Positions 14,938 through 62,897 of a stretch of 64,000 nucleotides of DNA are shown here, in pieces. This stretch comes from Panopea generosa (taxonomy: Eukaryota > Mollusca > Bivalvia > Adapedonta > Hiatellidae), in the NCBI GenBank assembly GCA_029582155.1, contig CM055909.1, positions 42,468,967 through 42,532,966 of the forward strand, read 5' to 3'. The position numbers and the translations under genes were made by a program. The stretch's first letter is position 1, and the number at the start of each line of letters is the position of its first letter. The notes below the pieces were generated by a model. That model saw nothing but the letters and a program-made list of their open reading frames with translations. It was not told the DNA's origin and ran no database searches.

Positions 14938-16775
14938 ATGGGAAGATTAGTTGTTATTGCATTGTGTTTTATATCATCTGTGGGAGCCTTCAGTATAGAC
15001 AAAGATGAACCACAATGTCTGTCTAGGTTTGATTATGATTACAAAGTGCTTCAGAAGCTTGTCGCGTTGGAACAACAGCAGACAGAGTTAAGAGAGACGA
15101 TAACAAAACAAAAGGATTTAATAGAACAACTGAGGCAAGGCACTAAAGGTGAGTACATATAATACTGTATCTATTTCCCTATACAATTAACACATGGTGC
15201 ATTGTCTAAATCTATAGAAGATACGACCTTTAATAAAGATAACCATGCCTATATTTTTTTATGCAAAATCATTACAAATATAAAAGTTAAAAAAGAAACA
15301 TATTTGTATTGTTTTAGTGATGATTAATGTAATATTAAAGATACCCAATTAAAGGAAGCTGTGACATTATTCATAACAAAAAATGTCACTGCTAAGTTTC
15401 ACATACCCGCCAAGTGGTCTAAACAAAAAAAGAGATTACATGTACTTGTAATTTCCGAGTAGGTAGTTAAATATATTAATATATATTAATAGTTATGGAC
15501 TAAAGTTACAGCCTGGACACACAATTTCATATTTTTATAAGCTAAAAGTGTGACCTTTATCTTTGTGTTACCTTGACCTTGACATTATGGTATACAGGCC
15601 TGCAAAGCACAGGTGACATATCATCATGTCATGCCGATGACTTTGGTCAAGTTATTTCAATATCATTCCATGATATATAAATTAAAACAGACGCAAAGTG
15701 TTGTCAAACAATTTTAAAGTGTGACCTTGACCTCTAAGGGAATAGTCTGGTACGTACGGCAAGAAATCGTTATGTTATGTTGATCTTTTCAGCTAAGTCA
15801 TTTAATATTCATCCATATATGATAAACTACAGACCGGGCACAAAATCTCAAACTTAAAATGTGACGTTTGACCTTTGAGCTACGGGTCCTGTTCATACGC
15901 ACGACACGTCATCACACCATGTTCACTATTTGTGCCAATTCTGTTTGAAAATCCAGTTATGTATTACAAAGTTACAAATATGACATTAAATTCGGACAGA
16001 CGGGCGGAAACACAGACACTACGATTATCATATGTCCCACAAATAAATCGGGGCTTAAAACACTGCTTCATGAATAGGTCAATGCATTTTACATAACTAA
16101 TTTAAAGAATAGCCAATTATAGAAGATGAATTCGATCATAGATTTCTTAAACAAAGCTCTATACTGTCGTCAGTGTGCTGATGTTGTGTAACAAACTTAA
16201 TAGTATGTTTGATTTCAGATAAATGGGCTGGATCAACATACGTAAGATGGGGAAGGACGTCATGTTCAGGGAATGGATCAGAACTGGTTTACCATGGCTA
16301 TACTGCCGGATCAATGTACGACCATAGTGGCAGTGCGGCAAACTTTCTTTGTCTCCCAACTGAACCATTGTGGGGTCATTATGAAGATGCGGTACAATCT
16401 AGTGCAGAAGTATGGGGAGCAGAATATCAACTGAATGAAAGAAACTTAAATCGTTTCTTCGGTGGAAACATATATAACGAAGATGTTCCTTGTGCTGTCT
16501 GCAGAACAACACGGACAAGCATCCTGATGATCCCGGGAAGGAACGCTTGTTATCCAGGATGGACTTTGGAATACAAAGGATACCTAACAGCAGGACACAA
16601 GTCACACAAAGCGACGGAATTCGTTTGTTTGGATGACAAACCAGAAACAATAGCTGGAGGACATGCCGACCAGAATGGACACCTCCTCTATTTTGCCGAA
16701 GTAAGATGCGGCTCTCTGAAATGTCCGCCATATGTGAATGGTCGGGAACTGACATGTGCAGTATGTACGTTTTAA
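14938..16775 (+). CDS. Copy A: secreted coiled-coil, C4-like Cys-rich domain protein (exons 14938-15148, 16219-16775)
   Basis: Predicted 255 residues after splicing at aaag/gtgagt and ttgatttcag/at (phase 1). Residues 1-17 are a signal peptide (cleavage likely after VGA). Cys27 follows. Residues 35-67 form a coiled coil with a-positions L41, Q48, I55, I62 and d-positions V37, L44, L51, Q58, L65. Residues 75-255 are the globular domain, starting AGSTYVRWGRTSC, with ten Cys (86, 115, 162, 165, 181, 207, 234, 239, 250, 253) and the sequon N89-G-S. I recognise this domain from bivalve proteins annotated 'short-chain collagen C4-like', but there is no Gly-X-Y tract here. Inferred role: an extracellular disulfide-linked oligomer; ligand unknown. 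MGR was chosen as start because it is common to all copies, whereas upstream in-frame ATGs are not. Body is type 1 (GYTAGSMYDHSGS, ending CTF). Confidence 0.88.
15530..16035 (+). repeat. Type-1 intron repeat with TGACCTTGACCT words
   Basis: Dispersed-repeat-like sequence within intron A, with gtgacctttatctttgtgtt, accttgaccttgacat, gtgaccttgacctct and a terminal cggacagacgggcggaaaca. The same block fills the introns of D, F and G. Repeats ending in stacked ggacagacggacgg words are common in bivalve genomes, so this is likely an old mobile element that marks the type-1 gene body. Confidence 0.6.
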
Positions 16776-17459
16776 TGTATGTAAGCTAGGCTGATAGTAC
16801 AGTGTTAAATGTTATGCGAGTGTGTCTCATTGTTGGAGGATTGTGCTCGTTAGAAAATAATGTATTTTACATATTGCAAAATGAAGTATATTAATCTAAA
16901 GGGACACACGGACATGTTAAATGTTCAATTCTAATCTACGCATGTTCAAGCATCACTATTATATCTGTGACAGTGTTTTAATCTCGAAGTGTTACTATCT
17001 CAATAATTCATATTTAACAAATTTCTTTAAAATTAGTAGTGTTACTTAATTTTGAAAAAATGAGTTAAATGTTTTGAAAAATAGTTTTTTTTAGAGTTTT
17101 CCTTGATATGTTAAAAATAAGAACTGATGGAATCAAAACAGTACATGGCATGGCTAAAAAACGATGTGTGGGCACAGTTGTAAGGGGTCCGGGGCTTCCC
17201 TCTCCGAAAAAAAATTCAGCTGGGTCGCAGGTGTTTTGTTGTGTATTTCTTATTTTAGGGCCTATAGTTATCATTAATATTAACCTTGAATTTACTGTTT
17301 TATAACCAAATAAATGTAATGTTTTAGGTTTGTTCACTTCAATAAAGCTAAAATGAAATAGCATAGTAGTAATATTTTATTGCATTTTTGGGCATTTCTC
17401 AGAAAAGAAGTGTAGCACGTGCCTTCAGTGCATATGGCGAGCTACGCCACGATCAAAAT
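16776..17459. other. Type-1 3' flank of copy A
   Basis: Shared with the flanks of D, F and G over aaagggacacacggacatgt and gtgacagtgttttaatct. Positions 17095-17459 (aagaactgatggaatcaa, aaggggtccgggg, cgagctacgccacg) recur only after copy G, at 55245-55590. No AATAAA is seen close to the stop codon. Confidence 0.6.
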
Positions 17460-17704
17460 ATACTGAGCGGAACAGCTAACCCGCCATCTGACGTTTTATG
17501 TACCTGACATTTTAGGTATTTTCTTGAAAATTAGTAACACAATCTCCTTGAAATTTGGACTTGAATACGAAAGAATATTAAGGTTATATAAAAAATTCAA
17601 TTAAAAACTGTTAATGTCGTATACAAATTTTGAAAACACTACTCGGTCTATAGACAAAACTATTGCAAATACAAAAGCGGCGTGTTAGCTGTTCTGTTCA
17701 ATAT
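17460..17704 (+). mobile_element. MITE of the GAACAGCTAAC family
   Basis: About 245 bp. Left end is tactgagcggaacagctaac and the right end, reverse-complemented, is tattgaacagaacagctaac, giving imperfect terminal inverted repeats of at least 26 bp. TA repeats at both edges suggest a TA target. No coding capacity. Other copies are at 55593-55836 (same orientation) and 10005-10190 (opposite, truncated). Confidence 0.75.
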
Positions 17705-18016
17705 ATATTTCACATTATCTCTCATTAATGACCACATATGTGCGATATTGAATGACTTTTAATATTTTATATGCATTCTGTCTCTTTCCAAAACTAAAAT
17801 GAAATGAAGGTTTGCATACATATTGTTGTATTTTCATATCCTATATGAATCATGTACATTTTTTTCAGAAATAGGGCTATCATTGTTATAAGAATTGTGA
17901 TTCGGGAGATCTTGATTCGACGCCCGGTGCAAGATTATTTTTAATTTACCTTTTTTTCTTACAGTACCCCATAATAGCTTCTCATAGATCCTGATTCGAC
18001 GCCAAATATCAATGTA
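17705..18016. other. Spacer with tRNA-like fragment
   Basis: Contains gattcgggagatcttgattc then gacgcccggtg (17899-17929). This resembles a tRNA T-arm or B box and recurs at about 36115 and 56032. It is probably a SINE remnant carried in the duplicated unit. Confidence 0.35.
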
Positions 18017-18730: not shown

Positions 18731-21589
18731 ATGGGAAGATTTGTTGTTGCTGTATTGTGTTTTATATCATCTGTGGGAGCCTACAGTATAGAAAAAAATG
18801 AGCCACAATGCCTGTCTAGGTTTGATTATGATTACAAAGTGCTCCAGAAGCTTGTTGCGTTGGAACAACAGCAAACAGAGTTAAGAGAGACGATAACTAA
18901 ACAAAAGGATTTAATAGAACAACTGAGGCAAGGCACCAAAGGTGAGTTTATATACTCATGTATATATTTCGTTAATAATTAACACATGGTGCATTGTCTA
19001 AATGTAAAGAAGATGATGTTTTACAAGGTTAATGTTGATACAGCAAACGTTAGTTGTTTAATTACGTTAATACATTTAACATGTAAACAACCCGCGGTAT
19101 GCATTACATTAAATAAAAACAATAACACTATACATTACCGTTAGTATTCTACGCCAATATTTACCTGGCACTCATGAATATTCCGTGTAGGTCCGTAAAT
19201 TAATGTCGGTGTCCAAACGTAAATAGTGATATTACTGTTGATAAACCGATACCAATGCATTAAATTGGAATCATTCACGAATAGCTGCACGGAACATGCG
19301 TTTAAACGTCCCACCATGTAGGTATAGATTAGTGAGTGGCAGGTAAATACTTACGCACAATGATATTGTGTTCAAGTATGATCTATGGTGACAATATTAG
19401 GACGAGGGCTGTGCTTGTTAAGTGTATTTTGAGAATAAGCATTTCTCTATTAGCAGTTTTGATGTGAACGCTGTTCCATTTGTAGAACAATAATCTCACA
19501 GTGTTAATTTTATTCACGGCGGCGTTTCGTTGTAATAATGTAACGGGAGAGGAAAGAGCGAGGTTATTTACTGTTTTGTACCTGCCACCACATATCTATT
19601 TAGCTAACTGAATAACTAGATAATGTTTGTGTTACCAACTATTTAATATTCGGACCAGATTAGCTCAGTCGGTTACGCGTCTGACTATCAATCCAGGGGT
19701 GGTGAGTTCGAATCCCCCGCCCGGCAACGGTCTCCGTGATGATTGATATACGACATTGAGTCTCATTATCATTCGTCTCTCACCACTGATTCAAGTGGGA
19801 AAGTTATCAGTTACTTGCGAAGATGGGGTGTGCTCGAGTACTGGTTAATCCCAGGAAACAGTGGTTAGGTTAATTGATCGTCTGTTAGCCCTCGATGGCA
19901 TAAAAATGACGCTTAATATTCAAATAATCAATCGGAATATTTCGTTTATATTCAATAAGCGCTAACCATTCTCTATTCCTCAGAAAGGACCGAGTGGTAA
20001 TGATTTGTTTGTACTGTAACGGATGTGGATAAGGGAAGTTCAAATATAACTAAGGATGTTTATGTTCATTTTAGTATATCTTCTAATTTTCTTTGCCAAA
20101 TTAGCTTGGTTTATATTGCCATTAGCCGGTATCTGTTGTTTTGGGGATATAGTTTATATACATGTTTATTGTTAAACAGGTCAAAAGAAAGTTTGACTAG
20201 TTTGGACAAAAATCTCCACATAGTAATTTCGCATTTACCAAACTACCATACTAATGTCCTGTAAATGGCAAACGCCAATTTAGGACTTTCTGTCTGACAA
20301 AGCTTATTTTTATCTAAAGTACCATTATAAAGTCTGGTTGATAAATAACGACTAAACAATCAACTGTATACTTTTTACCAATAACTAACTACTCTATAAA
20401 CTATAGCAGAAATGTGTTTATTGACAAGAATGCCCTCGCTTTATATGCGCAATTAGACGTTGTACTAATATTTTCAACCAAGTATTCTCAAATTCTGTTA
20501 TGGAGTAGTCTTGACAAGAATTATATTCGTCAATTGAACGTATTTAAAGGGCAATAAGTCCGCTAAAATCTGATGAACATAAACATCCCGACAACACGTG
20601 CAATTCGCCTTCATACAGCTATTTCCTACCAAGTTCTATTAAAATCTGACAAGTACCTAAGCCCGAAAGTCTTGCATACAAATTAGCGTTCTCACGAATG
20701 TATCATGAGAGGCGTTTCTTTTGTTTACAAAAGCCACACAATGTTAACAAAATAAACACAAAAATAACAGAATAAAACAAGATCTATAGTTTTCAAAGTC
20801 CAAGAACAGGTCTAGACACCAACTTTTTGAACGGATAGCCAGAAGGACTACCAAGTCCTACCAAGTCCTGATTTCATTGATAATAAAAGTGTCAACATAA
20901 TTGAGAATTAATAACAATTACTTAAAAAGGCAATAATTATTTATCACGAACGCTAAGCATTTGTGGTATTGTTTAAAGAATCAATACCAAAAGAAATTTA
21001 AAAAAATCAGCACCGAAAAGGTTCTGTATTAATCCCCATATATCCACAAAAATGAAACAAAACAATAGAAAGCTATATCCCAAAAATATGGGTACCGGCT
21101 ACCAAGCTAAATTGGCTAAGAACATTAGAAAATATACTAGACAGCACATAAACTACATGTATATGGTCTCGACATTGAAAATGTAAGTAAGCATCCGTAC
21201 TTCCCTCAACCATCTGCGCTTCTTTACAACCAATCCTAACCACTCGGCCCTTTCTGAGGAAAAGAAAACGATAAGTGATTTATTGAGTAAAAAAACCAAA
21301 GTATTCCGAATATCAAATAACTGGTTACACGTACATTATCTAGTTATTATTTTATTATATCTTAATTAGAAATTTATCATGTTAGTTAACTAGATAACTA
21401 AATAATTTTCGAAAACATTAAGTGGTTAACTAGATACTTATCGCGTTAGTTAAGTGTATAACTGGTGGCAGAACTATGCCACTATAAAGAGGTCAACCTC
21501 TATCGGTTTTTTTTATTTCTGTATGCAGAACAATGATCTCAGTGTATTTTTATTCACGGCGGCGCTTCGATTTTATGATGTGACTCGAA

Positions 21590-21631
<42 letters not shown>

Positions 21632-22432
21632 AGGGTACTTGTATTATGTTTGTGGCTGTGTAATTTTAATCTCACATCTCCTGTTCGAACTCTAATTTCA
21701 TTTGTGTTACTTCTAAAAGATTCCATAATTATGTCGGAGTCAATCATTCACTTCAGATAAAGATGCCGGGTCAACATACGTACGATGGGGACGGACATCT
21801 TTCTCATTTTTGTGATGCCTTTGTTGAACTTCTCACATATTTCATAACTATGTCAGAATCTATTATTTACTTCAGATAATGGTGCCGGGTCAACATACGT
21901 ACGATGGGGACGGACATCTTGTCCAGGTAATGGTTCAGAACTGGTTTACCATGGTAACGCCGCTGGATCACAACATAACCACCAAGGGAGCGCTGCCAAT
22001 TTTTTATGTCTCCCAACTGAGCCATTGTGGGGACATTATGAAGACGCGGAACAATCTAGTGCTTTAGTTTGGGGAGCAGAATATGAACTAGATGGAAGGA
22101 ACTTAAATCGTTTCTTCGGTGGCAACATACATAACGATGACGTTCCTTGTGCTGTATGCAGAACAACACGGACAAGCGACCTGATGATTCCGGGAAGGAA
22201 CGCTTGTTATCCAGGATGGACTTTGGAATATAAAGGATATCTAACAGCTGGTCATACCACGCAATATGCTACAGAATTTATCTGTTTGGATGACAAACCG
22301 GAAACAATACCTGGAGGACATGCCGACCAGAATGGACACCTGCTCTACTTTGCAGAAGTAAGATGCGGCTCTCTGAACTGCCCACCCTATGTGAATGGTC
22401 GGGAACTGACATGTGCAGTTTGCACAAAATAA
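18731..22432 (+). CDS. Copy B: secreted coiled-coil, C4-like domain protein (exons 18731-18941, 21876-22432)
   Basis: 255 residues, same exon lengths and splice phase as copy A. Exon 1 reads MGRFVVAVLCFISSVGAYSI then EKNEPQC before the coil. The type-2 exon 2 starts DNGAGSTYVRWGRTSCPG, with GNAAGSQHNHQGS in place of the type-1 GYTAGSMYDHSGS, and it ends VCTK. All ten domain Cys are kept. Copy-specific changes include ALVWG (for AEVWG or AQVWG), TSDLM and ETIPGG. Its intron, 2934 nt, is the longest in the array because of a foreign element with inverted repeats. A second exon-2-like acceptor lies 119 nt before the true one. The likely poly(A) hexamer is AATAAG at 22474-22479, where C and E have AATAAA. 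Confidence 0.85.
19582..21480. mobile_element. Long-TIR element in intron B, interrupted by a SINE
   Basis: Left arm (19582-19651 plus about 19940-20045) pairs with the right arm (about 21215-21471, reversed). Shared blocks are ctgccacca, ataactagataatgt, atattcgga, and cctcagaaaggaccgagtgg against cctcagaaagggccgagtgg. The right arm carries extra taactagata subrepeats. The other type-2 introns run straight from the gcgaggtt region to the ggtcaacctctatcg region, so the element is an insertion private to copy B. No transposase frame is seen, so it is probably a non-autonomous DNA transposon. Confidence 0.68.
19652..19936 (+). mobile_element. tRNA-derived SINE, complete-looking, nested in the left arm
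   Basis: The head resembles a tRNA with A box tagctcagtcgg and B box gagttcgaatccc. It is followed by ctctcaccactgattcaagt, agttacttgcgaagatgggg, and a tail ending in aatattcaaataatcaat. It is not an isolated tRNA gene, because the downstream body is shared with the minus-strand copies at 25521, 31261 and 47531. It interrupts the element's left inverted repeat next to attcgga, with a possible short duplication (cgga). Confidence 0.75.
21590..21630 (+). repeat. Poly-G run of 41 bases
   Basis: An uninterrupted G tract replaces the gaggggaaagagcg segment seen at the same place in other type-2 introns (for example 57673-57684). It may be a real slippage expansion or a base-calling or assembly fault. 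Confidence 0.95.
21757..21800 (+). pseudogene. Partial duplicate of the exon-2 start inside intron B
   Basis: 44 nt identical in kind to the first 44 nt of exon 2 (ataaagatgccgggtcaaca onward), preceded by its own acceptor cacttcag. It breaks off after acggacatct and rejoins intron sequence (ttctcatttttgtgatgcc). It encodes DKDAGSTYVRWGRTS and would then run into a stop within a few codons, so its use as an acceptor would truncate the protein. Confidence 0.85.
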
Positions 22433-24560: not shown

Positions 24561-24824
24561 TATATTATACTATCTACTTGTTATAATGTATTCCTATTGC
24601 ATATAAAATGTATATTCCATGAATATAATCACCTAATTGGACTTTTGATTTTCCAATTAGAAATCTAACCTATCAATAGAATCTATCAGTAGAATCTTCC
24701 AACTGGACTCTTTATATTCCGCTTAATATCGACCGCTTTGAAATTGTAATTTCCCCTTGGAAACTAAAGCCAATCGGAATATTTGCATGGTGTTTTTTTA
24801 CTACTTAGAATGAATTTAGCTAGT

Positions 24825-24951
24825 AATAGCTGGAGGACATGCCGACCAGAATGGGCACCTGCTCTTATTCGCAGAAGTAAGATGCGGCTCTCTGAAATGT
24901 CGCCATAAGTGAATGGTTGGGAACAGACATGTACATTTTTGCACAAAATAA
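24825..24951 (+). pseudogene. Orphan exon-2 end (relic)
   Basis: Matches the last ~42 codons of exon 2 (AGGHADQNGHLL, then RCGSLKC) with a one-base deletion in gtcgccataag and further changes before the stop at 24949-24951. No exon 1 or exon-2 start belongs to it. It has the same 3' flank as the relics at 10191 and 46677. Confidence 0.88.
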
Positions 24952-27445: not shown

Positions 27446-29057
27446 ATGGGAAGATTTGTTGTTGCTGTATTGTGTTTTATATCATTTGTGGGAGCCTTCA
27501 TTATAGACAAAGATGAACCACAATGTCTGTCTAGGTTTGATTATGATTACAAAGTGCTTCAGAAGCTTGTCGCGCTGGAACAACAGCAGACAGAGTTACG
27601 AGAGACGATAACTAAACAAAAGGATTTAATAGAACAACTGAGGCAAGGCACCAAATGTGAGTTTATATACTCATGTATATATTTCGCTAATAATTAACAC
27701 ATGGCGCATTGTCTAAATCTAAAGAAGAAAATGTTTTACAATTTATATGACAGTAACGTAGATAGTTTACCCGCGGTATGCAACAATAAATACAATGTAC
27801 ATTCACATTAGTATTCTATGTCAGTATATACCTAGCACTCGTGCATATTCCGGGTAGATCCGTCCATTAATTTCGGTGTCCAAACATAAATTGTGATATT
27901 ACTGTTGATATACGGATACCAATGCATTAAATTGCCATCATTCACGAATAGCTGCACAGAACATGCGTTTAAACGTCCCAACATGTTGGTGTAGATTAAT
28001 GAGTGCCAGGTAAATACTCACGCACAATAATGTTCTGGTCAAGTATGAACTATGGTGACAATATTAGGACGAGGGCTGTGCTTATCAAGTCTATTTTGAG
28101 AATTAGTAATTCTCTATTTGAAGTTTTGATGTGAACGCTGTCCCATTTGTAGAACAATTATCTCAATGTGTTAATTTTATTCACGGCAGCGTTTCGTTGT
28201 TATAATGTGACGGGAGAGGAAAGAGCGAGGTTGGGAATCCTGCAAACCAGGTTTAAGGCTCAGAGTTGAGGTTTATTGCTATTTCAACTGTTCAAAGTGG
28301 TCAGCCTCTATCGTGTTGTTTTTCTGTATGTATATTTGTATTTGTGTTATTATAATTATAACTATTATGTGTTTTGTGTTGTGGCTGTGTACTTTGAATC
28401 ATACATCTCCTGTTTAAACTGTACTTTCTCATTTTTGTGATGCCTTTGTTGAACTTCTCACATATTTCATAACTATGTCAGAATCTATTATTTACTTCAG
28501 ATAATGGTGCCGGGTCAACATACGTACGATGGGGACGGACATCTTGTCCAGGTAATGGCTCAGAACTGGTTTACCATGGTAACGCCGCTGGATCACAACA
28601 TGACCACCAGGGGAGTGCTGCCAATTTTTTATGTCTCCCAACTGAGCCATTGTGGGGACATTATGAAGACGGGGAACAATCTAGTGCTCAAGTTTGGGGA
28701 GCAGAATATCAACTAAGTGGAAGGAACTTAAATCGTTTCTTCGGCGGCAACATACATAACGATGACGTTCCTTGTGCCGTATGCAGAACAACACGGACAA
28801 GCGTCCTGATGATCCCGGGAAGGAACGCTTGTTATCCAGGATGGACCTTGGAATATAAAGGATACCTAACAGCAGGTCATACCAGCCATTATGCTACAGA
28901 ATTCATATGTTTGGATGACAAACCGGAAACAATATCTGGAGGACATGACGACCAGAATGGACACCTGCTCTACTTCGCAGAAGTAAGATGCGGCTCTCTG
29001 AACTGCCCACCCTATGTGAATGGTCGGGAACTGACATGCACAGTTTGCACAAAATAA
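27446..29057 (+). CDS. Copy C: secreted coiled-coil, C4-like domain protein (exons 27446-27656, 28501-29057)
   Basis: 255 residues if spliced like its sisters. Exon 1 has ISFVGAFIIDKDEPQC. The last exon-1 base is T rather than the G found in every other intact exon 1, so the donor reads aaat/gtgagt and residue 71 becomes Tyr instead of Asp (TAT for GAT). Loss of G at -1 could weaken splicing, although gtgagt itself is intact. Exon 2 is type 2 (GNAAGSQHDHQGS, QLSGRNL, HTSHYATEF, ending CTK), with all ten Cys. AATAAA lies at 29105-29110. It is the only copy here that pairs an alpha upstream module with a type-2 body, which suggests a recombinant. Confidence 0.83.
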
Positions 29058-33062: not shown

Positions 33063-33289
33063 ATGGGAAGATTTGTTGTTACTGCATTGTGTTTTATATC
33101 ATCTGTGGGAGCCTTCAGTAAAGACAAAGATGAATCACAATGTCTGTCTAGGTTTGATTATGATTACAAAGTGCTTCAGAAGCTTGTCGCGTTGGAACAA
33201 CAGCAGACAGAGTTAAGGGAGACGATAACTCAACAAAAGGATTTAATAGAACAACTGAGGCAAGGTACTAAAGGTGAGTACATGTAATA

Positions 33290-33323: not shown

Positions 33324-34924
33324 ACATACAATCAACACATGGTGTATTGTCTATATTTATAGAAGATAAGACCTTTAATACAGATAACCATGCCTATATT
33401 TCTTTATGCAAAATTATTACAAAATATAAAAGTTAAAAAAGAAACATATTTGCATTATTGTTTCAGTGATGATTAATGCATTATTAAAGCTACTGAATTA
33501 ATGAAAGATGTTTTACAAATATAAACGATGTCACATTATTCATAACAAAAATGTCACTGCTTAGTTACACATACCCGCCAAGTGGGCTAAACAAAAACGG
33601 TAAACATGTACTTGTAATTTTCGAGTAGGTACTTAAATATATTTAGATATATTAATAGTTATGGACTAAAGTTACACGCAATTTCATATTTTTACAACCT
33701 AAAATTGTGACCTTTATCTTTGTGTTACCTTGACCTTGACATATGGTATACAGGCCTGAAATACATAGGTGACAGATCACCATGTCATGCCGATGACTTT
33801 GGTCAAGTTATTTCAATATCTCTACATGATATACAAATTAAAACAGACGCAAAGAGTTGTCAAACAATCTTAACGTGTGATCTTGACCGCTGAGGCAATA
33901 GTTTGGGTCTTACGGCGACAAATCATTATGTTATGTTGATCAATTCAGCTAAGTGATTTACTATTCATCCATGTATGATAAACTACAGACCGGACACAAA
34001 ATCTCAAACTTATAATGTGACGTTTGACCTTTGAGGTACGGGTCCTGTTAATATGCACGACACGTCGTCACACCATGTTCACTATTTGTGCCAAAAAATC
34101 CAGTTAGGTATTACAAAGTAACAAATATGACACTAAACTCGGACAGACGGACGGAAACACAGACACTACGATTACCATATGTCCCACAACAAATTAGGGG
34201 CATAAAACACATTGCTGTATGAATAGGTCAAGGCATTTTACATGAGTGAATTAAAGAAAAGCCAATTATAGAAGATAGTTTCGATGATAGATGTCTTATA
34301 GAAAGTTCTGTACTGTCTTCAGTTGGCTGTTGTTGTGTAACAAGCTTTATTGTATGTTTACTTTCAGATAAATTGGCTGGATCGACATACGTAAGATGGG
34401 GAAGGACGTCATGTCCATGTAATGGATCAGAACTGGTTTACCATGGTTACACTGCAGGATCAATGTACGACCACAGTGGCAGTGCGGCAAACTTTCTTTG
34501 TCTCCCAAATGAACCATTGTGGGGTCATTATGATGATGCGGTACAATCTAGTGCAGAAGTTTGGGGAGCAGAATATGAACTAGATGGAAGGGACTTAAAC
34601 CGTTTCTTCGGTGGCAACATAAAAAACGAAGATGTTCCTTGTGCCGTCTGCAGAACAACACGGACAAGCATCCTGATAATCCCGGGAAGGAACGTTTGTT
34701 ATCCAGGATGGACTTTGGAATACAAAGGATACCTAACAGCAGGTCACAAGTCACACAAAGCAACGGAATTCGTTTGTTTGGATGACAAACCAGAAACAAT
34801 AGCTGGAGGACATGCCGACCAGAATGGACACCTCCTCTACTTTGCCGAAGTAAGATGCGGCTCTCTGAAATGTCCGCCATATGTGAATGGTCGGGAACTG
34901 ACATGTGCAGTGTGTACATATTAA
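33063..34924 (+). CDS. Copy D: secreted coiled-coil, C4-like domain protein (exons 33063-33273, 34368-34924)
   Basis: 255 residues. Exon 1 has AFSKDKDESQC and TITQQKDLIEQL. The 1094-nt type-1 intron carries the TGACCTTGACCT repeat and an early (TA)n run (33292-33320). Exon 2 is type 1 (GYTAGSMYDHSGS, ELDGRDL, HKSHKATEF, ending CTY). Residue 88 is Cys (TSCPCNGS), where A, B, C and E have Gly and F has Tyr, so the domain has eleven Cys, an odd number. RNVCYPGW replaces RNACYPGW and ILIIPG replaces ILMIPG. The extra Cys could form an intermolecular bridge; this is inference. Confidence 0.87.
33680..34180 (+). repeat. Type-1 intron repeat (copy D)
   Basis: Same repeat block as 15530-16035, ending in cggacagacggacggaaaca. 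Confidence 0.6.
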
Positions 34925-37397: not shown

Positions 37398-39078
37398 ATG
37401 GGAAGATTTGTTGTTGCTGTATTGTGTTTTATATCATTTGTGGGAGCCTACAATATAGACAAGGATGAGCCACAATGCCTGTCTAGGTTTGATTATGATT
37501 ACAAAGTGCTTCAGAAGCTTGTCGCGTTGGAACAACAGCAAAAAGAGTTAAGAGAGACAGTTACTCAACAAAAGGATTTAATAGAACAACTGAGGCAAGG
37601 CACCAAAGGTGAGTGTATATAATGGTATCTATATGTCGTTAATATTTAACACATGGTGCATTGTCTAAATCTAAAGAAGATGATGTTTTACAATGTATAT
37701 GACATTAATGTAGATACAGCAAACGTTAGTTGTGTAATTACGTTAAAACATTTAACATGTAAACAACCCGCGGTATGCATTACATTAAACAAAAACAATT
37801 ACACTGTAAATTACCGTTAGTATTCTACGTCAATATTTACCTGGCACTCATGAATGTGCCGTGTAGATCCTTAAATTAATGTCGGTGTCCAAACGTAAAT
37901 AGTGATATTACTGTTGATAAACCGATAATAATGCATTACATTGGAATCATTCACGAATAGCTGTACGGAACATGCGTTTAACGTCCCAATATGTTGGCGA
38001 AGATTAATGAGTGGCAGGTAAATATTTACGCTTTGTAATGTTCTGGTCAAGTGTGATATATGTTGACACTATTAGGACGAGGGCCGTGCTATTAAGTGTA
38101 TTTTGAGAATAAGCAATTCTCTATTAGGAGTTTTGATGTGAACGCTGTCCCATTTGTAGAACAATAATCTCTCAGTGTTAATTTATTCACGGCTTGTGTC
38201 GTTGTATTTTTATGATGTGACGGGAGAGGAAAGAGTGAGGTTAGGTGTCCTGCAGACCAGGGTTTTAAAAGCTCCACAAAAAATTAATACGGTTTATTGC
38301 TATTGCAACTGTTCAAAGGGGTCAACCACTATCGTGTTTTATTTCAGTATGTATATTTGTATTTGTGTTATTATAATTATAACTATTATGTGTGTTGTGT
38401 TGTGGCTGTGTAATTTGAATCATACATCTCCTGTTTGAACTGTACTTTCTCATTTTTGTTATGTCTTTGTTGAAGTTCTCTGATATTCCATCACTATGTC
38501 AGAATCAATTATTTACTTCAGATAATGGTGCCGGGTCAACATACGTACGATGGGGACGGACATCTTGTCCAGGTAATGGCTCAGAATTGGTTTACCATGG
38601 TAACGCCGCTGGATCACAACATGACCACCAGGGAAGTGCTGCCAATTTTTTATGTCTCCCAACTGAGCCATTGTGGGGACATTATGAAGACGCGGAACAA
38701 TCTAGTGCTCAAGTTTGGGGAGCAGAATATCAACTAGATGGAAGGAACTTAAATCGTTTCTTCGGCGGCAACATACATGACGATGATGTACCTTGTGCTG
38801 TCTGCAGAACAACACGGACAAGCGTCCTGATGATCCCGGGAAGGAACGCTTGTTATCCAGGATGGACTTTGGAATATAAAGGATACCTAACAGCAGGTCA
38901 TACCACGCATTATGCTACAGAATTTATCTGTTTGGATGACAAACCGGAAATAATAGCAGGAGGACATGCCGACCAGAATGGACACCTGCTCTACTTCGCA
39001 GAAGTAAGATGCGGCTCTCTGAACTGCCCACCCTATGTGAATGGTCGGGAACTGACATGCGCAGTTTGCACAAAATAA
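37398..39078 (+). CDS. Copy E: secreted coiled-coil, C4-like domain protein (exons 37398-37608, 38522-39078)
   Basis: 255 residues. Signal peptide MGRFVVAVLCFISFVGA, then YNIDKDEPQC. The coil varies slightly (EQQQKELRETVTQQKDL), with the I-to-V change at the core a-position 55 being conservative. The 913-nt type-2 intron lacks the insertion seen in copy B and so serves as its empty reference. Exon 2 is type 2 (GNAAGSQHDHQGS, QLDGRNL, NIHDDDVPC, HTTHYATEF, ending CTK) with ten Cys. AATAAA is at 39125-39130. This is the cleanest beta/type-2 gene in the window. Confidence 0.9.
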
Positions 39079-45500: not shown

Positions 45501-46676
45501 ACCACGTAACAATTTAATATATACGTCATTTTCTAGAACAAAAACAACTGAAACTTAACTCACCAACTGCACAAATATAAGTACAGATTTTTTATCTAAT
45601 TAATACTATATTGGTATGTGCAGAAGACTCATCAATATTATAACATATTGCATGTTAGAATCGTTATCATTCCGTTATTACAAGTGTAAAACCAAGTTGC
45701 AGTTGTTGTTTACTATTTCAGTAGTAAACTAGACTGACCCTTGTAGGTCAATGATATTCCCGGATTAATTAAGTCATCGTCACAAAATGTATCACGCACA
45801 TCTACACTCGATGTTGTTGTATGGTTTAAGCTCCACAATTGCGGTTTATTCCTATTTCAACTGTTCAAAGTGGTGATACTCTATCGTGTTTTATTTCTGT
45901 ATGTATGTTTGTATTGCTGCTAGTATAATTATTGTATGTACAGGTTACGTCTGTGATGTTGTTGTGGTTGTATTTTGAATCCTGTTTGATATGTACTTTT
46001 TTATTTTCGCCTTGAATTTGTTGAACTTCTCAAATACTTCATGTAAGAATCAAATACAGTACACACGCCAGCAGGCACGTGCATCCACGCATACGCTGCA
46101 TATACAAACATTGACACGCCCATAGACTACACACACACAAACACACACACACACACACACACACATGCGAACAAATAAACGTACACTCTCACTCACACAA
46201 GTACATATGCTGCATTAACATTGATACGCCCGCACACACACACACACATGCCAACAAATAAACGTACACGCTCACTCACACAAGTACATATGCTGCATTA
46301 ACATAGAAACGCACGCGCTCACGCATGCACTCAACCACATGCACACGTACCTACTCTGCATTCATATACAAACGCACGCATGTATACGTATACACGCAAT
46401 ATATTACACTATTTACTTGTTATAATGTATTCCTATTGCATATAAAATGTATATTCCATGAATAGAATCAACTAATTGGACTTTTGATATTCCAATTAGA
46501 AATCTAATCTATAAATAGAATGTATCAATATAATCTTCCAAATGGACTCTTTATATTCCGCTTTATATTGACCGCTTTGAAATTGTAATTTCCCCTTGGA
46601 AACTAAAGCTAATTGGAATATTTGATTTCCAATTTGACATGGTGGTTTTTTACTACTTAAAATAAATTTATCTAGT
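45501..46676. other. Rest of the copy E 3' flank after the LINE
   Basis: Continues the type-2 flank exactly where it was split, with the same order as after copy B (gtgcagaagactcatcaat; ccaagttgcagttgttg). The CA-rich tract is at 46070-46400. Confidence 0.75.
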
Positions 46677-46804
46677 TATAGCTGGAGGACATGCCGACCA
46701 GAATGGGCACCTGCTCTTCTTCGCAGAATTAAGATGCGGCTCTCTGAAATGTCCGCCATACGTGAATGGTCGGGAACAGACATGCACAGTTTTGCACAAA
46801 ATAA
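46677..46804 (+). pseudogene. Orphan exon-2 end (relic)
   Basis: The last ~42 codons of exon 2, still close to intact (AGGHADQNGHLLFFAELRCG, then SLKCPPYVNG) but reading GREQTCTVLH toward the end, with an extra T before the stop region at 46802-46804. It lacks all upstream exon parts. Counterpart of 24825. Confidence 0.88.
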
Positions 46805-49259: not shown

Positions 49260-50908
49260 ATGGGAAGATTTGTTGTTACTGTATTGTGTTTTATATCATC
49301 TGTGGGAGCCTTCAGTAAAGACAAAGACGAAACACAATGTCTGTCTAGGTTTGATTATGATTACAAAGTGCTTCAGAAGCTTGTCGCATTGGAACAACAG
49401 CAGACAGAGTTAAGAGAGGCGATCACTAAACAAAGGGATTTAATAGAACAACTGAGACAAGGCACTAAAGGTGAGTACATAATTATAATAGTGTATATAT
49501 TTCCCTATACAATTAACACATGGTGCATTGTCTAAATCTATAGAAGATACGACCTTAAATACAGATAACCATGCCTATATTTCTTTAAGCAAAATTATTA
49601 CAAAAATAAAATATAAAAAATAAACATATTTGTTTTACTGTTTCAGTGATGATTAATGCAATATTAAAGCTACCCAATTAAAGGAAGCTGTTTTACAAAT
49701 ATATACGATGTGACATTATTCATAACAAAAATGTCACTGCTAAGTTTCACATACCCGCCAAGTGGTCTAAACAAAAACAGCGATTACATGTACTTGTAAT
49801 TTCCGAGTAGGTAGTTAAATATATTAATATATATTAATAGTTATGGACTAAAGGTACAGTCTGGACACACAATTTCACATTTTTACAAGCTAAAACTGTG
49901 ACCTTTATCTTTGTGTTACCTTGACCTTGACATATGGTATACAGGCCTGCAAAGCACAGGTGACATATCACCATGTCATGTCGATGACTTTGGTCAAGTT
50001 ATTTCAATATCTCTCCATGATATACAAGTTAAAACAGACACAAAGTGTTGTCAAACAATCTGAAAATGTGACCTTGACCTCTGAGGCAATAGTCTGGTAC
50101 TTACGTCGACAAATCATTATGTTATGTTGATCAATTCAGCTAAGTGATTTAATAGTCATCCATGTATGATAAACTTAAGACCAGACACAAAATCTCAAAC
50201 TTAAAATGTGACGTTTGACCTTTGAGCTACGGGCCCTGTTCATACGAACGACACGTTGTCACACCATGTTCACTATTTGTGCAAAAAAATATCAAATTAC
50301 TTATTACAAAGTAACAAATATGACACTAAATACTAGTATGTTTACTTTCAGATAAATGGGCTGCATCGACATACGTAAGATGGGGAAGGACGTCATGTCC
50401 ATATAATGGATCAGAACTGGTTTACCATGGCTACACTGCAGGATCGATGTACGACCACAGTGGCAGTGCGGCAAACTTTCTTTGTCTCCCAACTGAACCA
50501 TTGTGGGGTCATTATGAAGATGCGATACAATCTAGTGCAGAAGTTTGGGGAGCAGAATATGAATTAGGTGGAAGGGACTTTAACCGTTTCTTCGGTGGCA
50601 ACATACATAACGAAGATGTTCCTTGTGCTGTCTGCAGAACAACACGGACAAGCGTCCTGATGATCCCGGGAAGGAACGCTTGTTATCCAGGATGGACTTT
50701 GGAATACAAAGGATACCTAACAGCAGGTCATAAGTCACACAAAGCAACGGAATTCGTTTGTTTGGATGACAAACCAGAAACAATAGCTGGAGGACATGCC
50801 GACCAGAATGGACACCTCCTCTACTTTGCCGAAGTAAGATGCGGCTCTCTGAAATGTCCGCCATATGTGAATGGTCGGGAACTGACATGTGCAGTGTGTA
50901 CATATTAA
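49260..50908 (+). CDS. Copy F: secreted coiled-coil, C4-like domain protein (exons 49260-49470, 50352-50908)
   Basis: 255 residues. Exon 1 has AFSKDKDETQC and LREAITKQRDL. The type-1 intron is 881 nt, shorter than in A, D and G because the segment with cggacagacggacgg up to gtaacaagctttattgtatg has been lost. The acceptor tttactttcag is intact. Exon 2 is type 1 but begins DKWAASTYVRWG, with Ala in place of the Gly75 kept in every other copy, and has TSCPYNGS with Tyr at 88. Other signatures are GYTAGSMYDHSGS, ELGGRDF, HKSHKATEF and ending CTY. All ten Cys are present. Confidence 0.86.
49880..50330 (+). repeat. Type-1 intron repeat (copy F), right end deleted
   Basis: Same repeat as 15530-16035. 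It stops after atatgacactaaat and lacks the cggacagacggacgg end. Confidence 0.58.
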
Positions 50909-52445: not shown

Positions 52446-54297
52446 ATGGGAAGATTTGTTGTTACTGCATTGTGTTTTATATCATCTGTGGGAGCCTTCA
52501 GTATAGACAAAGATGAACCACAATGTCTGTCTAGGTTTGATTATGATTACAAAGTGCTTCAGAAGCTTGTCGCATTGGAACAACAGCAGACAGAGTTAAG
52601 AGAGACGATAACTAAACAAAAGGATTTAATAGAACAACTGAGGCAAGGCACTAAAGGTGAGTACATATAATATTGTATATATTTCCCTGTATAATTAACA
52701 CATGGTGCATTGTCTAAATCTATAAAGATAATGCCTTTAATACAGATAACCACGCCTATATTTCTTTATGCAAAATTATTACAAATATAAAAGTTAAATA
52801 AAAAACATATTTGTATTACTGTTTCAGTGATGATTAATGCAATATTAAAGCTACCCAATTAAAGAAAGCTGTTTTACAAATATATACGATGTGACATTAT
52901 TCATAACAAAAAATGTCACTGCTAAGTCACATACCCGCCAAGTGGTCTAAACAAAAAAAAGCGATATGCATGTACTTGTAATTTCCGAGTAGGTAGTTAA
53001 ATATATTAATATATATATTAATAGTTATGGATTAAAGTTACAGCCTGGACACGCAATTTCATAGTTTTACAAGCTAAAAGTGTGACCTTTATCTTTGTGT
53101 TACCTTGACCTTGACATATGGTATACAGGCCTGAAAAGGACAGGTGACATATCACCATGTCATGTCGATGACTTTGGTCAAGTTATTTCAATATCTCTCC
53201 ATGATATACAAATTCAAACAGACGCAAAGTGTTGTCAAACAATGTTAACGTGTGACCTTGACCTCTGAGGCAATAGTCTGGTACTTACGGCGACAAATCA
53301 TTATGTTATGTTGATAAATTCAGCTAAGTGATTTAATATTCATCCATGTATGATAAACTACAGACCGGACACAAAATCCCAAACTTAAAATGTGACGTTT
53401 GACCTTTGAGGTACGGGTCCTGTTCATACGCACGACATGTCGTCACACCATGTTCACTATTTGTGCAAAAAAATCCAGTACGTATTACAAAGTAACAAAT
53501 ATGACACTAAATTCGGACAGACGGACGGAAACACAGACACTACGATCACCATATGTCCCACTAAAAATTAGGAGCATAAAAAACATTGCTGTATGAATAG
53601 GTCAAATCATTTTACACGACTGAATTAAAGAAAAGCCAATTATAGAAGATAGTTTCGATGATAGATGTCTTATAGAAAGTTCTGTACTGTCTTCAGTTTG
53701 CTGTTGTTGTGTAACAAGCTTTATTGTATGTTTAATTTTAGATAAAAGGGCTGGATCGACATACGTAAGATGGGGAAGGACGTCATGTCCATGTAATGGA
53801 TCAGAACTGGTTTACCATGGCTACACTGCAGGATCAATGTACGTCCACAGTGGCAGTACGGCAAACTTTCTTTGTCTCCCAGCTGAACCATTGTGGGGTC
53901 ATTATGAGATGCGGTACAATCTAGTGCAGAAGTTTGGGGAGCAGAATATGAACTAGATGGAAGGGACTTAAACCGTTTCTTCGGTGGCAACATAAAAAAC
54001 GAAGATGTTCCTTGTGCCGTCTGCAGAACAACACGGACAACCATCCTGATGATCCCGGGAAGGAACGCTTGTTATCCAGGATGGACTTTGGAATGCAAAG
54101 GATACTTAACAGCAGGTCACACGTTACACAAAGCGACGGAATTCGTTTGTTTGGATGACAAACCAGGAACAATAGCTGGAGGACATGCCGACAAGAATGG
54201 ACACCTCTTCTATTTTGCCAAAGTAAGATGCGGCTCTCTGAAATGTCCGCCATACGTAAATGGGCGGGAACTGACATGTGCAGTGTGTACATTTTAA
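52446..54297 (+). pseudogene. Copy G: frameshifted member of the secreted C4-like family (exons 52446-52656, 53742-54297)
   Basis: Exon 1 is intact (211 nt, AFSIDKDEPQC, full coil, donor aaag/gtgagt), and the acceptor is a slightly altered tttaattttag. Exon 2 is 556 nt instead of 557. One base is missing in cattatgagatgcgg (sisters: cattatgaagatgcgg) near 53907, which leads to a stop about 15 codons later. The frame after the break is otherwise open to CTF at 54297. Further oddities are Cys88 (TSCPCNGS), YVHSGST for YDHSGSA, and LECKGY for LEYKGY, which adds another Cys. The truncated product would keep signal peptide, coil and the first ~55 residues of the domain. A sequencing error cannot be excluded, but the other changes suggest relaxed constraint. 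Confidence 0.87.
53060..53575 (+). repeat. Type-1 intron repeat (copy G)
   Basis: Same block as 15530-16035, complete with the cggacagacggacggaaaca end. Confidence 0.6.
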
Positions 54298-54385
54298 TGT
54301 ATTTAAGCCAGACTGATAATACACTGTTAAATGTGATGCGAGTATTGAAGGATTGTGCTCGTTAGAAAATAATCGCAAAATGAAA

Positions 54386-55836: not shown

Positions 55837-56149
55837 TATATTTCACATTATCTCTCATTAATGACCACATATGTGCGATATTGAATGACTTTTAATATTT
55901 TATATGCATTCTGTCTCTTTCCAAAACTAAAATGAAATGAAGGTTTGCATACATATTGTTGTATTTTCATTTCCTATATGAACCATGTACATTTTTTTCA
56001 GAAATAGGGCTATCATTGCCATAAGAATTATGATTCGGGAGATCCTGATTCGACGCCCGGTGCAAGATTATTTTTAATTTCCCTATTTTTCTTACAGTGC
56101 CCATAATAGCTTCTCATAAATCCTGAATCGACACCCAATATCAATGTAC

Positions 56150-56847: not shown

Positions 56848-58476
56848 ATGGGAAGATTTGTTGTTGCTGTATTGTGTTTTATATCATCTGTGGGAGCCTA
56901 CAGTATAGGCAAAGATGAACCACAATGTCTGTCTAGGTTTGATTATGATTACAAAGTGCTTCAGAAGCTTGTCGCGTTGGAACAACAGCAGACAGAGTTA
57001 AGAGAGACGATAACTAAACAAAAGGATTTAATAGAACAACTGAGGCAAGGCACCAAAGGTGAGTATAAATTATGTACTCATGTATTTATTTCGTTAATAA
57101 TTAACACATTGTGTATTTTCTAAATCTAAAGAAGAAAATGTTTTGCATGTAAATGACATTAATGTAGATACAGCAAACGTTAGTTGTTTAATTACGTTAA
57201 TGCATTTAACATGTTAACAACTCGCGGGATGCATTACATTAAACAATAACAATTACACTGTACATTCACGTTAATACGCGAGTATTTACGTGGAAATCAT
57301 GAATATTCCGTGTAGATCCGGAAATTAATGTCAGTGTCCAAACGTAAATAGTGATATTACTGTTAGTGAACCGATACCATTGCATTAAATTGCCATCATA
57401 CGCGAATAGCTGCCCGGAACATGCGTTTAAACGTCCCAATCTATTGGTGTAGATTAATGAATGCCAGGTAAATACTCACGCACAATAATGTTCAGGTCAA
57501 GTATGAAATATGGTGACAATATTAGTACGAGGGTTGTGCTTATCAAGTCTATTTTGAGAATTAGAAATTCTCTATTTGCAGTTTTGATGTGAACGCTGCC
57601 CCATTTGTAGAACAGTAATCTCACAATGTTAATTTTATTCACGGCAGCGTTTCATTTTTATGATGTGACTCGAGGGGAAAGAGCGTGTTTTGGTGTCCTG
57701 CAAACCAGGGTTAAACTTCACAATTGTGGTTTATTGCTATTTCAACTGTTTAAAGGGGCCAACCGTGTTTGTTTTTCTGTATGTACATTTGTATTGGTGT
57801 TATTATAATTATAATTATTATTATTCTTTGTGTTGTGTTTTTGAACTGTACTTTCTCATTTTTGTTATGCCCTTGTTGAACATATTTCATAACTATGTCA
57901 GAATCAATTATTTACTTCAGATAATGGTGCCGGGTCAACATACGTACGATGGGGACGGACATCTTGTCCATGTAATGGCTCAGAACTGGTTTACCATGGT
58001 AACGCCGCTGGATCACAACATAACCACCATGGGAGCGCTGCCAATTTTTTATGTCTCCCAACTGAGCCATTGTGGGGACATTATGAAGACGCGGAACAAT
58101 CTAGTGCTCAAGTTTGGGGAGCAGAATATGAACTAGATGGAAGAACTTAGATCGTTTCTTTGGTGGCAACATACATAACGAGGACGTTCCTTGTGCCGTC
58201 TGCAGAACAACACGGACAAGCGTCCTGATGATCCCGGGGAGGAACGCTTGTTATCCTGGATGGACTTTGGAATATAAAGGATACCTAACAGCTGGTCATA
58301 CCACGCAATATACTACAGAATTTATCTGTTTGGATGACAAACCGGAAATAATAGCTGGAGGACATGACAATGTGAATGGGCACCTGCTCTACTTTGCAGA
58401 AGCAAGATGCGGCTCTCTGAACTGCCCACCCTATGTGAATGGTCGGGAACTGACATGCGCAGTTTGCACAAAATAA
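56848..58476 (+). pseudogene. Copy H: frameshifted member of the secreted C4-like family (exons 56848-57058, 57921-58476)
   Basis: Exon 1 is intact (AYSIGKDEPQC; Gly where sisters have Asp or Glu). The type-2 intron is 862 nt with normal splice sites. Exon 2 is 556 nt: gatggaagaacttag lacks one base against gatggaaggaactta, giving DGRT then a stop at 58148-58150, close to residue 147. The rest remains open in the next frame to VCTK at 58476, with HTTQYTTEF and GGHDNVNGHL. It also has Cys88 (TSCPCNGS), as in D and G. AATAAA remains at 58523-58528. Only the single lesion is obvious, so it is a young pseudogene or a base-call error. Confidence 0.86.
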
Positions 58477-59608: not shown

Positions 59609-59648
<40 letters not shown>

Positions 59649-60419: not shown

Positions 60420-60692
60420 CCGCGGAAGATCTTCCTGTGTCTAATATTAGTGATATTCATTGGCGAATGAATACACTACACGCAGTAGAATAATAGTATA
60501 TGTAAAACGAAAACGGATAAAAATAGTTTTCACATTGCAACAATTTCCAACGAAACTGACAGATATTGACAATAACATTTCTCGCATTCCTTGCTAATAA
60601 CAAACATACAATAACAATATCCAAATAAATTGTATTGCCAGAGTGAAGTAGAGATTTTGGCAAGCTGTTTTATTTTATCTTTGAACATCACC
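60420..60692 (+). promoter_or_regulatory. Diverged beta-like upstream block of copy I
   Basis: Recognisable gtatatgtaaaacgaaaacg, gataaaaatagttttcac and ttgctaataacaaaca, more diverged than the other modules. Confidence 0.4.
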
Positions 60693-60960
60693 ATGGGAAC
60701 GTGAGCCACATTGTCTCTCTAGGTTTGATTATGATTACAAAGTGCTACAGAAGCTTGTCGCGTTGGAACAACAGCAGACAGATTTAAGAGAGACGATAAC
60801 TAAACAAAAGGATTTAACAGAACAACTGAGGCAAGGCACTAAAGGTTAGTATATAATCATATCTATATTTAACTAAATATGGTGTATTGTCTAAATATCA
60901 AGACCGCGGCATGCGTTACATTAAACAACAATAATTACAATGAGCATTCAGGTAAATATT

Positions 60961-61150
60961 TATCTCTCACCACTAAGGTCGCAGGTTCGAGTCCCGCTCG
61001 CTCCAAAAACTTTATGTGAGAAAGTTTCCAGTTACTTGCGGAAGGACGGTGGTTCTACTCAGTCTGACTCATTCTGGGCTCTTCCTCCACCGGTAAAACT
61101 GAATATGCCATATATAATATAAAATGTGTTGAAAATGGCGTTAAACCATT
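60961..61150 (+). mobile_element. SINE 3' part in intron I
   Basis: Starts in a B-box-like aggtcgcaggttcgagtccc, then gttacttgcggaaggacggt, cttcctccaccggtaaaact and an end in ggcgttaaaccat. This body layout is typical of bivalve tRNA-derived SINEs. Fragments of the same body lie near 31085, 47340 and 63480-63560. Confidence 0.7.
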
Positions 61151-61849
61151 AAAGCCATTAAAAAAGTGTTTTTTCTTTGTTAGTATTTACCTGGAACTTG
61201 TGAATATTCCGTGTATATCCGTAAATTATTTTTTGATGTCCGAACTAACTATTGGTAGTTCTGTTGATAAACAGATATCAATTATTAATTAGCATTATTC
61301 ACGAATAGCTGTACGGAGAATGCCTTTAAATGCCCCAACATGTTGGCGAAGATAAATTAATGCCAGGTTAAGACTTACGCACAATAATGTTTTGTCCCTG
61401 AATAATCTATGTTGACAAAATAGCAGTCACAGTTACTGTAAAACGTGTTGAAACGTGTTGAATATGGTGTTAAGTATTTAAATGTCAAGTTCTATGTACG
61501 AGTAATATGCATATTAAGCTTATTTTGAGAAATTGCAAGTCTCGTTTTTGACGTGACGGGAGGGGTAATAGCGAGGTTTGGTGTCCTGCAAACCAAGTTT
61601 AAGCTCCACAATTGCGATTTATTGATATTTCAACTGTTCAAAGGGGTCAATCTCTATCGTGTTTTATTTCTGTATGTTTGTCAGTATTGGTGTTATTATA
61701 ATTATTGTATGTACTGATTACGTTTGTACTAATATGGTGGTTGTAATTTTGATTCCATCCTACACCTCCTTTTTGATATGCACTTTCTTATTTTTGCAAT
61801 GCCTTTGTTGAACTTCTCAGATACTTCATAAGTACTTCAAATACATACA

Positions 61850-62060
61850 CATTCCATTCGCTTCATATACAAACATTGACACGCACGTAGACTAAACTCA
61901 CACACTGACGAACACACAAATGTACATGCATACAAACACCTACGATGCATCAATATACATACGCACCCGCGCACGCATGCACTCACACACATGCACACGT
62001 ACTTACTCTGCATTCACATACAAACGCATGCATGTACACGTGCACACGCATTATATTTTA
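61850..62060 (+). repeat. CA-rich block in intron I
   Basis: Same acacgcatac-type low-complexity tract seen after copies B, C and E, here inside an intron. It shows that intron I and those 3' flanks share sequence. Confidence 0.75.
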
Positions 62061-62897
62061 CTATTTACTTGTTTATAATGTATTCTAATTGGACAATTGC
62101 ATATAAAATATTCAGTCTATAAATATAATCATCCAGTTGGACTTTTGTTATTCCAAATGGAAACCTGTTCCATAAATAGAATCTATCAATAGAATTTTCC
62201 AATTGGACCCTTTATATTCCAAAACTACATGTATATAATAGTTATCGTTATCCAAAAATACTAAGTTTGTAATATCAAAGCGCATAATAAAAAAACTTTT
62301 TTCCATCAGAAATTCACTCTGTTGTGTTTACTAACTTCAGATCAAGATGCCGGGTCAACATACGTACGATGGGGACGGACATCTTGTCCAGGTAATGGCT
62401 CATAACTGGTTTATCATGGTAACGCCGCTGGATCACAACATAACCACCAGGGAAGTGCTGCCAATTTTTTATGTCTCCCAACTGAGCCACTGTGGGGTCA
62501 TTACGAAGACGCGGAACAATCTAGTGCTCAAGTTTGGGGAGCAGAATATGAACTTGATGGAAGGAATTTAAACCGTTTCTTCGGTGGTAACATACGTGAG
62601 GATAACGTTCCTTGTGCAGTCTGCAGAACAACACGGACAAGCGTCCTGATGATCCCTGGAAGGAACGCTTGTTATCCAGGATGGACCTTGGAATATAAAG
62701 GATACCTAACAGCTGGTCATACCAGCCATTATGCTACAGAATTCATATGTTTGGATGACAAACCGGAAGTAATACTTGGAGGACATGACAACCAGAATGG
62801 TCACCTGCTCTACTTCGCAGAAGTAAGATGCGGTTCTCTAAACTGCCCACCCTACGTGAATGGGCGGGAACTGACATGCGCAGTTTGCACACTATGA

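Follow-up and report, generated by a model that had tools for sequence, protein, structure and literature searches.

A tandem gene array of Panopea generosa joins an NC1-like head to a stem exon also found in C1q-headed genes

What kind of protein is encoded by a tandem array of short, cysteine-rich genes in the bivalve Panopea generosa, and does it deserve the name collagen that its relatives carry in the databases? The array lies in a stretch of 64,000 nucleotides (G000:C16:42468967-42532966, hereafter the window) that is part of a genome of 1.47 Gb in 39 contigs. An earlier note on this DNA had described nine two-exon copies, assigned their cysteine-rich domain to the bivalve 'short-chain collagen C4-like' proteins and proposed that a coiled coil stands in the place of the collagenous tract. 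The window proteins are not collagens. They are probably best explained as small secreted, presumably trimeric proteins that present an NC1-like head on a C1q-type stem, with lectin-like binding and with a diversity generated by duplication and recombination.

A repeat search of the window found exon 1 and exon 2 nine times each, always on the plus strand (Table 1). Genes 1 to 6 are open, and their two exons of 211 and 557 nt join into proteins of 255 amino acids; GT donor, AG acceptor, phase-1 intron, Cys27 and coil are all present, so that the joined gene models bear out the earlier description of the six open copies. Exact exon sizes, previously ascribed to all nine copies, were found for exon 1 in eight and for exon 2 in seven (genes 1-6 and 9), while ten domain cysteines occur in five of the six open copies and eleven in gene 4. 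The nine same-strand copies stand as described; the array is longer than noted, however, with a decayed copy at 9.1-10.4 kb and additional exon fragments. In gene 9, the ATG reaches a stop after three codons. The last base of gene 3 exon 1 (27656) is T instead of G, and the junction codon encodes Tyr instead of Asp.

Exon 1 of these genes encodes a signal peptide, a cysteine and a coil with the signature FxYDYKVxQKL, and ends in a phase-1 donor. AlphaFold2 (AF2) modelled it as one helix spanning residues 3-68, with a mean predicted local distance difference test score (pLDDT) of 80-89 over residues 31-70. As had been proposed, there is a coil and no collagenous tract, yet the coil is not peculiar to the array: the same stem is also found before C1q and TSP1-like heads. 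A genome search with exon 1 returned 119 places at E <= 1 (best 150 of 152 candidates scored). Among the 27 best (E <= 1.3e-5), 15 precede an NC1-like head, six a C1q match and two a TSP1-like exon, with four unread; the six C1q matches lie on the strand of the stem within 3.4 kb, and the two that were read directly reach 76 and 80 bits in Pfam. In five of eight stem loci outside the family, a C1q exon that passes the Pfam cut-off follows within about 4.6 kb, and in two a TSP1-like exon follows. The TSP1-like exons score below the Pfam cut-off. At L052 (C16:13.38 Mb) and L053 (C3:47.99 Mb), the TSP1-like exon comes after the stem exon together with another Cys-rich frame, which at L052 matched no Pfam family; at L057, the last of the eight loci, no head was found among frames of at least 75 amino acids in the next 4.3 kb.

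The similarity extends to the splice phase, as the phase-1 donor of the window copies recurs in all six other stems inspected (phase read by eye). Identity to the stem of gene 1 amounts to 35/47, 28/47, 21/46 and 18/45 for NC1-like-headed, 27/47 and 25/47 for C1q-headed, and 22/47 and 24/47 for TSP1-like-headed genes; two NC1-like-headed stems rank closest, followed by the C1q-headed ones. In heptad-preserving shuffles, eight shared stems reached z scores of 6.4-9.7. A single clade of NC1-headed stems was rejected by the approximately unbiased (AU) test with p values of 0.013 and 0.025 under two models, in a tree of 17 rows that omitted L057, L067 and L068, whose heads are unread, and L064, whose stem gave no row. 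Judged by these sequence comparisons, the presence of a common stem exon in C1q-headed and NC1-headed genes is firm, while a repeated exchange of the stem between heads has modest support. A limited literature search turned up no published account of stem sharing with C1q, which is no proof of absence. A search of the genome for C1q gave 621 first-look candidates, and 150 of the 150 scored matched; this number suits a bivalve, as does the range of the family given in PMC5395295. At C19:11.0-12.5 Mb, a dense array comprises dozens of exons that resemble the stem but encode a longer coil, of which the one that was read (L051/L058) is C1q-headed.

The head itself is a tandem duplication of two units of about 90 amino acids. 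The halves are 27% identical, score against each other with z 7-9 above shuffles and, compared as family profiles, match with a probability of 94.5% (E 8e-8). In a family alignment of 29 rows, eight of the ten cysteine columns hold Cys in every row with a residue, and the other two do so in 26/28 and 26/29 rows; L046, L047 and L048 (short or disrupted), L011, L020 and L028 (domain pieces unjoined) and L039 were left out. In Pfam scans, no model reached the cut-off in the window proteins, heads included, and C1q (PF00386) did not match the heads. The earlier note had also suggested a search of structure databases; sequence searches of the PDB yielded no credible relative of the window proteins. 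Weak Pfam or PDB matches to the LINE-1 ORF1 coil, serum amyloid A, ZAP, GLEYA and Rio2 were judged to be chance, and no relatives were found in prokaryote and viral contigs with the patterns used.

The identity of the head emerges from less direct comparisons. The NC1 of spongin is described as having seven Cys in common with collagen IV, three of its own and no HSQ motif (PMC5395295). The window heads agree with this Cys count (ten, or eleven in gene 4), and the HSQ motif is absent from all six open copies. An octopus ink peptide bears the name short-chain collagen C4-like (PMC10142993), and alignment of this 24-residue peptide to window heads gave scores of 80 and 81 that none of 500 shuffles equalled. 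The earlier domain call is backed by this peptide, the number of cysteines, the missing HSQ and a profile match to collagen IV NC1 that is weak but withstands shuffling, so that assignment of the head to the spongin or 'short-chain collagen C4-like' NC1 kind is supported. Spongins and short-chain collagens (Aouacheria et al. 2006, as cited in PMC5395295) resemble the window heads in their duplicated ten-Cys NC1 without HSQ, while the window genes differ by their coil stem, their two-exon tandem arrangement and the lack of any collagenous tract found.

A tie to collagen IV is fainter. Like the window head, its NC1 (PF01413, C4) consists of two tandem subdomains ending in CxVC, with weak collinear similarity; in contrast, the window head has ten Cys rather than twelve, no HSQ, and is invisible to PF01413, which gave no match in the window proteins. 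Pairwise comparison with human collagen IV alpha 1 reached z 4-5, against -0.7 to 2.9 for the other six chains. In hhalign, the window alignment alone matched collagen IV NC1 with a probability of 1%, and the paralogue alignment gave a weak match (probability 39%, E 3e-4, 39 columns) that was equalled by none of 150 column shuffles in each of two schemes. Common ancestry of the head and collagen IV NC1 is probable on these grounds. The collagen IV genes of P. generosa are two head-to-head genes on contig C14 (8.20 Mb on the minus and 8.33 Mb on the plus strand), in which Gly-X-Y adjoins the NC1. Standalone NC1 genes of ctenophores (PMC5395295) likewise encode a secreted NC1 without collagen tail, but they are of the collagen IV type, and the passages of that paper on these genes mention no coil.

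No Gly-X-Y run of four or more was found in the window genes or introns except for poly-G in the intron of gene 2, which rules out a Gly-X-Y exon hidden in the introns and upholds the earlier statement that the collagenous tract is absent. Nor did any of 20 paralogue loci show Gly-X-Y on the gene strand within 5.7-8.8 kb upstream of the head open reading frame. Across the genome, the head search yielded 140 pieces; merged when within 3 kb of each other, they make about 103 places on 15 contigs with relics counted. This number is rough, as the best 150 of 168 candidates were scored and one gene may count twice. The collagen piece closest to any of the 140 lies 275 kb away (138 scored collagen pieces; best 150 of 1031 candidates). 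A collagenous member may therefore still exist elsewhere in the genome.

Among the matches scored, heads form arrays of 13, 12, 11 (the window array), 10 and 8 places, and the next matches on the window contig, among the best 150 of 168 candidates, are at 40.86 and 49.94 Mb. An exon 1 resembling that of the window passed a script threshold in three of 20 loci (L009, L010 and L027). Single-exon head genes with Met, hydrophobic start and heptads, as seen by eye, are present on contigs C10 (open frames of 305 amino acids) and C7 (279 amino acids). The window array seems to belong to a large, modular set of secreted proteins with binding or matrix roles.

How might such a protein work? The signal peptide, deduced from the sequence, would direct secretion. 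Cys27 and about four coil heptads may then hold chains together, most likely as a group of three, in a short stem that would present the disulfide-rich, duplicated head. C1q heads, which the same stem carries, are trimers, and a trimer is also the most likely oligomer here. Residues K40-L-V-A-L-E45 of the stem come close to the trimer motif R-hxxhE (PMC3653964). Since coils replace the collagen tail in bivalve C1q proteins, the NC1-like heads could by analogy be multivalent binders, with sugars or surfaces in mucus or haemolymph as ligands, as is envisaged for C1q-like type II proteins. The latter (PMC6835236) share with the window genes a signal peptide, a coil stem, a head in a separate exon and tandem arrays, and the C1q-headed genes of P. 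generosa have the same stem exon; their head, however, is C1q (PF00386) and not NC1-like. In C. virginica, 262 of 476 C1q genes belong to the coil type while the collagen type has no member, and the type II genes shown have the order exon 1, intron, exon 2 (PMC6835236). In the top-25 non-shared list of the Mytilus gill, a 'Short-chain collagen C4 (Fragment)' has C1q, apextrin and fucolectin for company, though fibroin and collagen XII appear there as well (PMC4581086). Lectin-like binding is favoured, though unproven, over a matrix or egg secretion role.

Several observations weigh against this reading. The stem has K for R in the trimer motif, whose strict form occurs in seven of 15 stems examined, and the motif is also described in some dimers (PMC3653964). 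In the stem control, z was 4.8 for an unrelated coil, that of LINE-1 ORF1, and the score is partly generic to coils. The stem group submitted to the AU test was chosen after the identities were seen. Once long-branch rows are removed, the AU p value is 0.17, so that the number and direction of the exon's moves are not firm, as its sharing is. The AF2 model of the head, from nine near-identical sequences, has a pLDDT of 31. With respect to function, the best-documented expression found for the head is in a cuttlefish egg-capsule gland (PMC3484142), and four spongin-like proteins of Nematostella are confined for the most part to neuroglandular cells (PMC12549020); neither site belongs to the immune tissues. 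Papers on oyster, pearl oyster and anemone tie relatives to shell, growth, adhesion or neuroglandular cells. Given such diverse sites, the function may be recognition, which we favour, matrix or reproductive secretion, much as the earlier note had named defence, matrix and adhesion as candidates.

The next best explanation, albeit an unlikely one, is a structural protein of the extracellular matrix (shell, byssus or gill support), whose head would polymerize like spongin or collagen IV NC1 while the coil merely aligns the chains. Such a role would suit a head of the spongin NC1 kind and is in line with an oyster gill 'short-chain collagen C4-like' transcript that decreased on plastic together with shell-formation genes, which the authors relate to biomineralization (PMC12040131), as well as with two anemone relatives that are elevated in the adhesive pedal disc (PMC6626399). 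It has to contend, however, with the lack of a Gly-X-Y tract in the window genes and 20 paralogue loci, with about 103 divergent places, which are many for a scaffold, and with a stem common to C1q-headed genes.

Still less likely, in our estimation, is a secretion of reproductive glands that serves the egg capsule or acts as a waterborne signal. The cuttlefish 'sex pheromone precursors' SP-alpha and SP-beta (PMC3484142) are secreted, similar in length to the window proteins (248-252 amino acids), and exhibit the domain over most of the printed mature peptide. Peptides alpha2 to alpha6 correspond, in order, to gene-6 head residues 3-46, 49-105, 110-122, 134-138 and 141-183, and beta3 to beta5 to residues 15-72, 89-129 and 156-182; for each of these eight peptides, none of 500 shuffles scored as high, alpha5 being just 12 residues long. 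Peptide beta2 aligned out of order (one of 500 shuffles as high), and the N-terminal alpha1 and beta1 did not match the gene-6 head (18 and 23 of 500 shuffles as high). Going by these alignments, SP-alpha and SP-beta carry the ten-Cys domain of the window heads over most of their length. The predicted dibasic cuts would then fall inside one disulfide-bonded domain, and the proposed SP peptides would be fragments of a single folded unit. The precursors account for 268 of 560 expressed sequence tags of the accessory gland (PMC3484142), which would agree with a reproductive role. On the other hand, the Mytilus relative stands in a gill list (PMC4581086), and the coil stem of the window proteins is not evident in the printed SP peptides, which stem from the oviduct gland and which the authors regard as derived from peptide precursors (PMC3484142).

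The array also records how its diversity may have arisen. Two head types can be distinguished, K in genes 1, 4, 6 and 7 and N in genes 2, 3, 5 and 8, with gene 9 joining the latter by sequence, and two upstream types, A in genes 1, 3, 4 and 6 and B in genes 2, 5, 7 and 8. Each A-type gene lies about 550 bp behind a 43-bp minisatellite, of which the tandem-repeat listing has no further array in the window. Gene 3 combines A with N and gene 7 combines B with K, which makes them reciprocal recombinants at exon 1. The switch falls within some 400 bp surrounding exon 1, an island in which the types are alike, while the DNA beyond it is dissimilar, and synonymous divergence (dS) between the types is 0.10-0.28 in exon 1 versus 0.46-0.64 in exon 2. 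Tandem duplication and recombination around the stem exon could in this way have driven diversification, coupling promoters A and B to heads K and N. Five of the 15 fixed K/N head differences cluster at residues 27-36 (permutation p 0.026, noticed after the fact), and differences appear again at 127 and 130, in the loop of the second half that corresponds to it, a pattern that hints at a contact surface.

Introns and flanks of the two types align at 38-65%, while the ratio of nonsynonymous to synonymous substitutions (dN/dS, NG86) in exon 2 is as low as 0.12-0.26 in 14 of the 15 pairs of open copies (0.75 in pair 4-6), and for this reason the copies represent more than chance. The head is under purifying selection. 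That the array is largely dead or neutral and maintained by unequal crossing over is very improbable: three of the nine copies are broken, as are at least three relics, and pair 4-6 has its high ratio, but six copies are open with intact splice sites, 14 pairs have low ratios and coding islands are kept amid dissimilar flanks.

Table 1. Gene array and other elements of the window, with positions counted from its first letter.
Feature	Position	Strand	Basis or remark
Gene 1 exon 1 (signal peptide, Cys27, coil), upstream type A	14938..15148	+	gene model
Gene 1 exon 2 (NC1-like head, K type), open	16219..16775	+	gene model
Gene 2 exon 1, upstream type B	18731..18941	+	gene model
Gene 2 exon 2 (N type), open; intron 2934 nt	21876..22432	+	gene model
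Gene 3 exon 1, recombinant of upstream type A and an N-type intron and head	27446..27656	+	
Gene 3 exon 2 (N type), open	28501..29057	+	gene model
Gene 4 exon 1, upstream type A	33063..33273	+	gene model
Gene 4 exon 2 (K type), open, 11 Cys	34368..34924	+	gene model
Gene 5 exon 1, upstream type B	37398..37608	+	gene model
Gene 5 exon 2 (N type), open	38522..39078	+	gene model
Gene 6 exon 1, upstream type A	49260..49470	+	gene model
Gene 6 exon 2 (K type), open	50352..50908	+	gene model
Gene 7 exon 1, reciprocal recombinant of upstream type B and a K-type intron and head	52446..52656	+	
Gene 7 exon 2 (K type), 556 nt, frame shift	53742..54297	+	broken
Gene 8 exon 1, upstream type B	56848..57058	+	gene model
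Gene 8 exon 2 (N type), 556 nt, frame shift	57921..58476	+	broken
Gene 9 exon-1 relic, signal-peptide stretch deleted	60652..60843	+	
Gene 9 exon 2 (N type by sequence), internal stop	62341..62897	+	
Exon-1 relic of the decayed copy that precedes gene 1	9096..9257	+	
Exon-2 relic of the decayed copy that precedes gene 1	10177..10385	+	
Exon-2 fragment	24823..24900	+	
Exon-2 fragment	46675..46800	+	
43-bp minisatellite	11545-14389, 26105-26894, 31867-32511, 48140-48707		upstream of each A-flanked gene
Non-LTR retrotransposon	41052-44760	-	between genes 5 and 6, two overlapping frames
31-bp tandem repeat	4026-5951		about 62 copies

Apart from the array, the window contains a non-LTR retrotransposon with endonuclease and reverse transcriptase above the Pfam cut-off and a zf-RVT region just below it, as well as a 31-bp tandem repeat. 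Scans for tRNAs and Rfam families gave no matches in the window.

Returning to the reading of the array as secreted binding proteins, a wider scheme can be put forward tentatively. One oligomerizing stem exon may serve as a common base for C1q, spongin-type NC1 and TSP1-like heads, with recombination reshuffling promoters against heads; the NC1-like heads could then constitute a second recognition repertoire beside C1q, and the cuttlefish 'pheromone precursors' a reproductive offshoot of it. If true, this second repertoire would be hidden because the Pfam copy searched has no model for the head and the database names say collagen. The comparison also places the cuttlefish pheromone precursors in a known domain family, and it becomes possible to test whether unrelated heads co-assemble via a common stem and whether a collagen NC1 has turned into a recognition head. 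Mollusc 'short-chain collagens' may often be no collagens but coil-stemmed proteins that are akin, by their stem, to C1q proteins of the immune type, and their expression in gill, mantle and glands would then have to be read differently.

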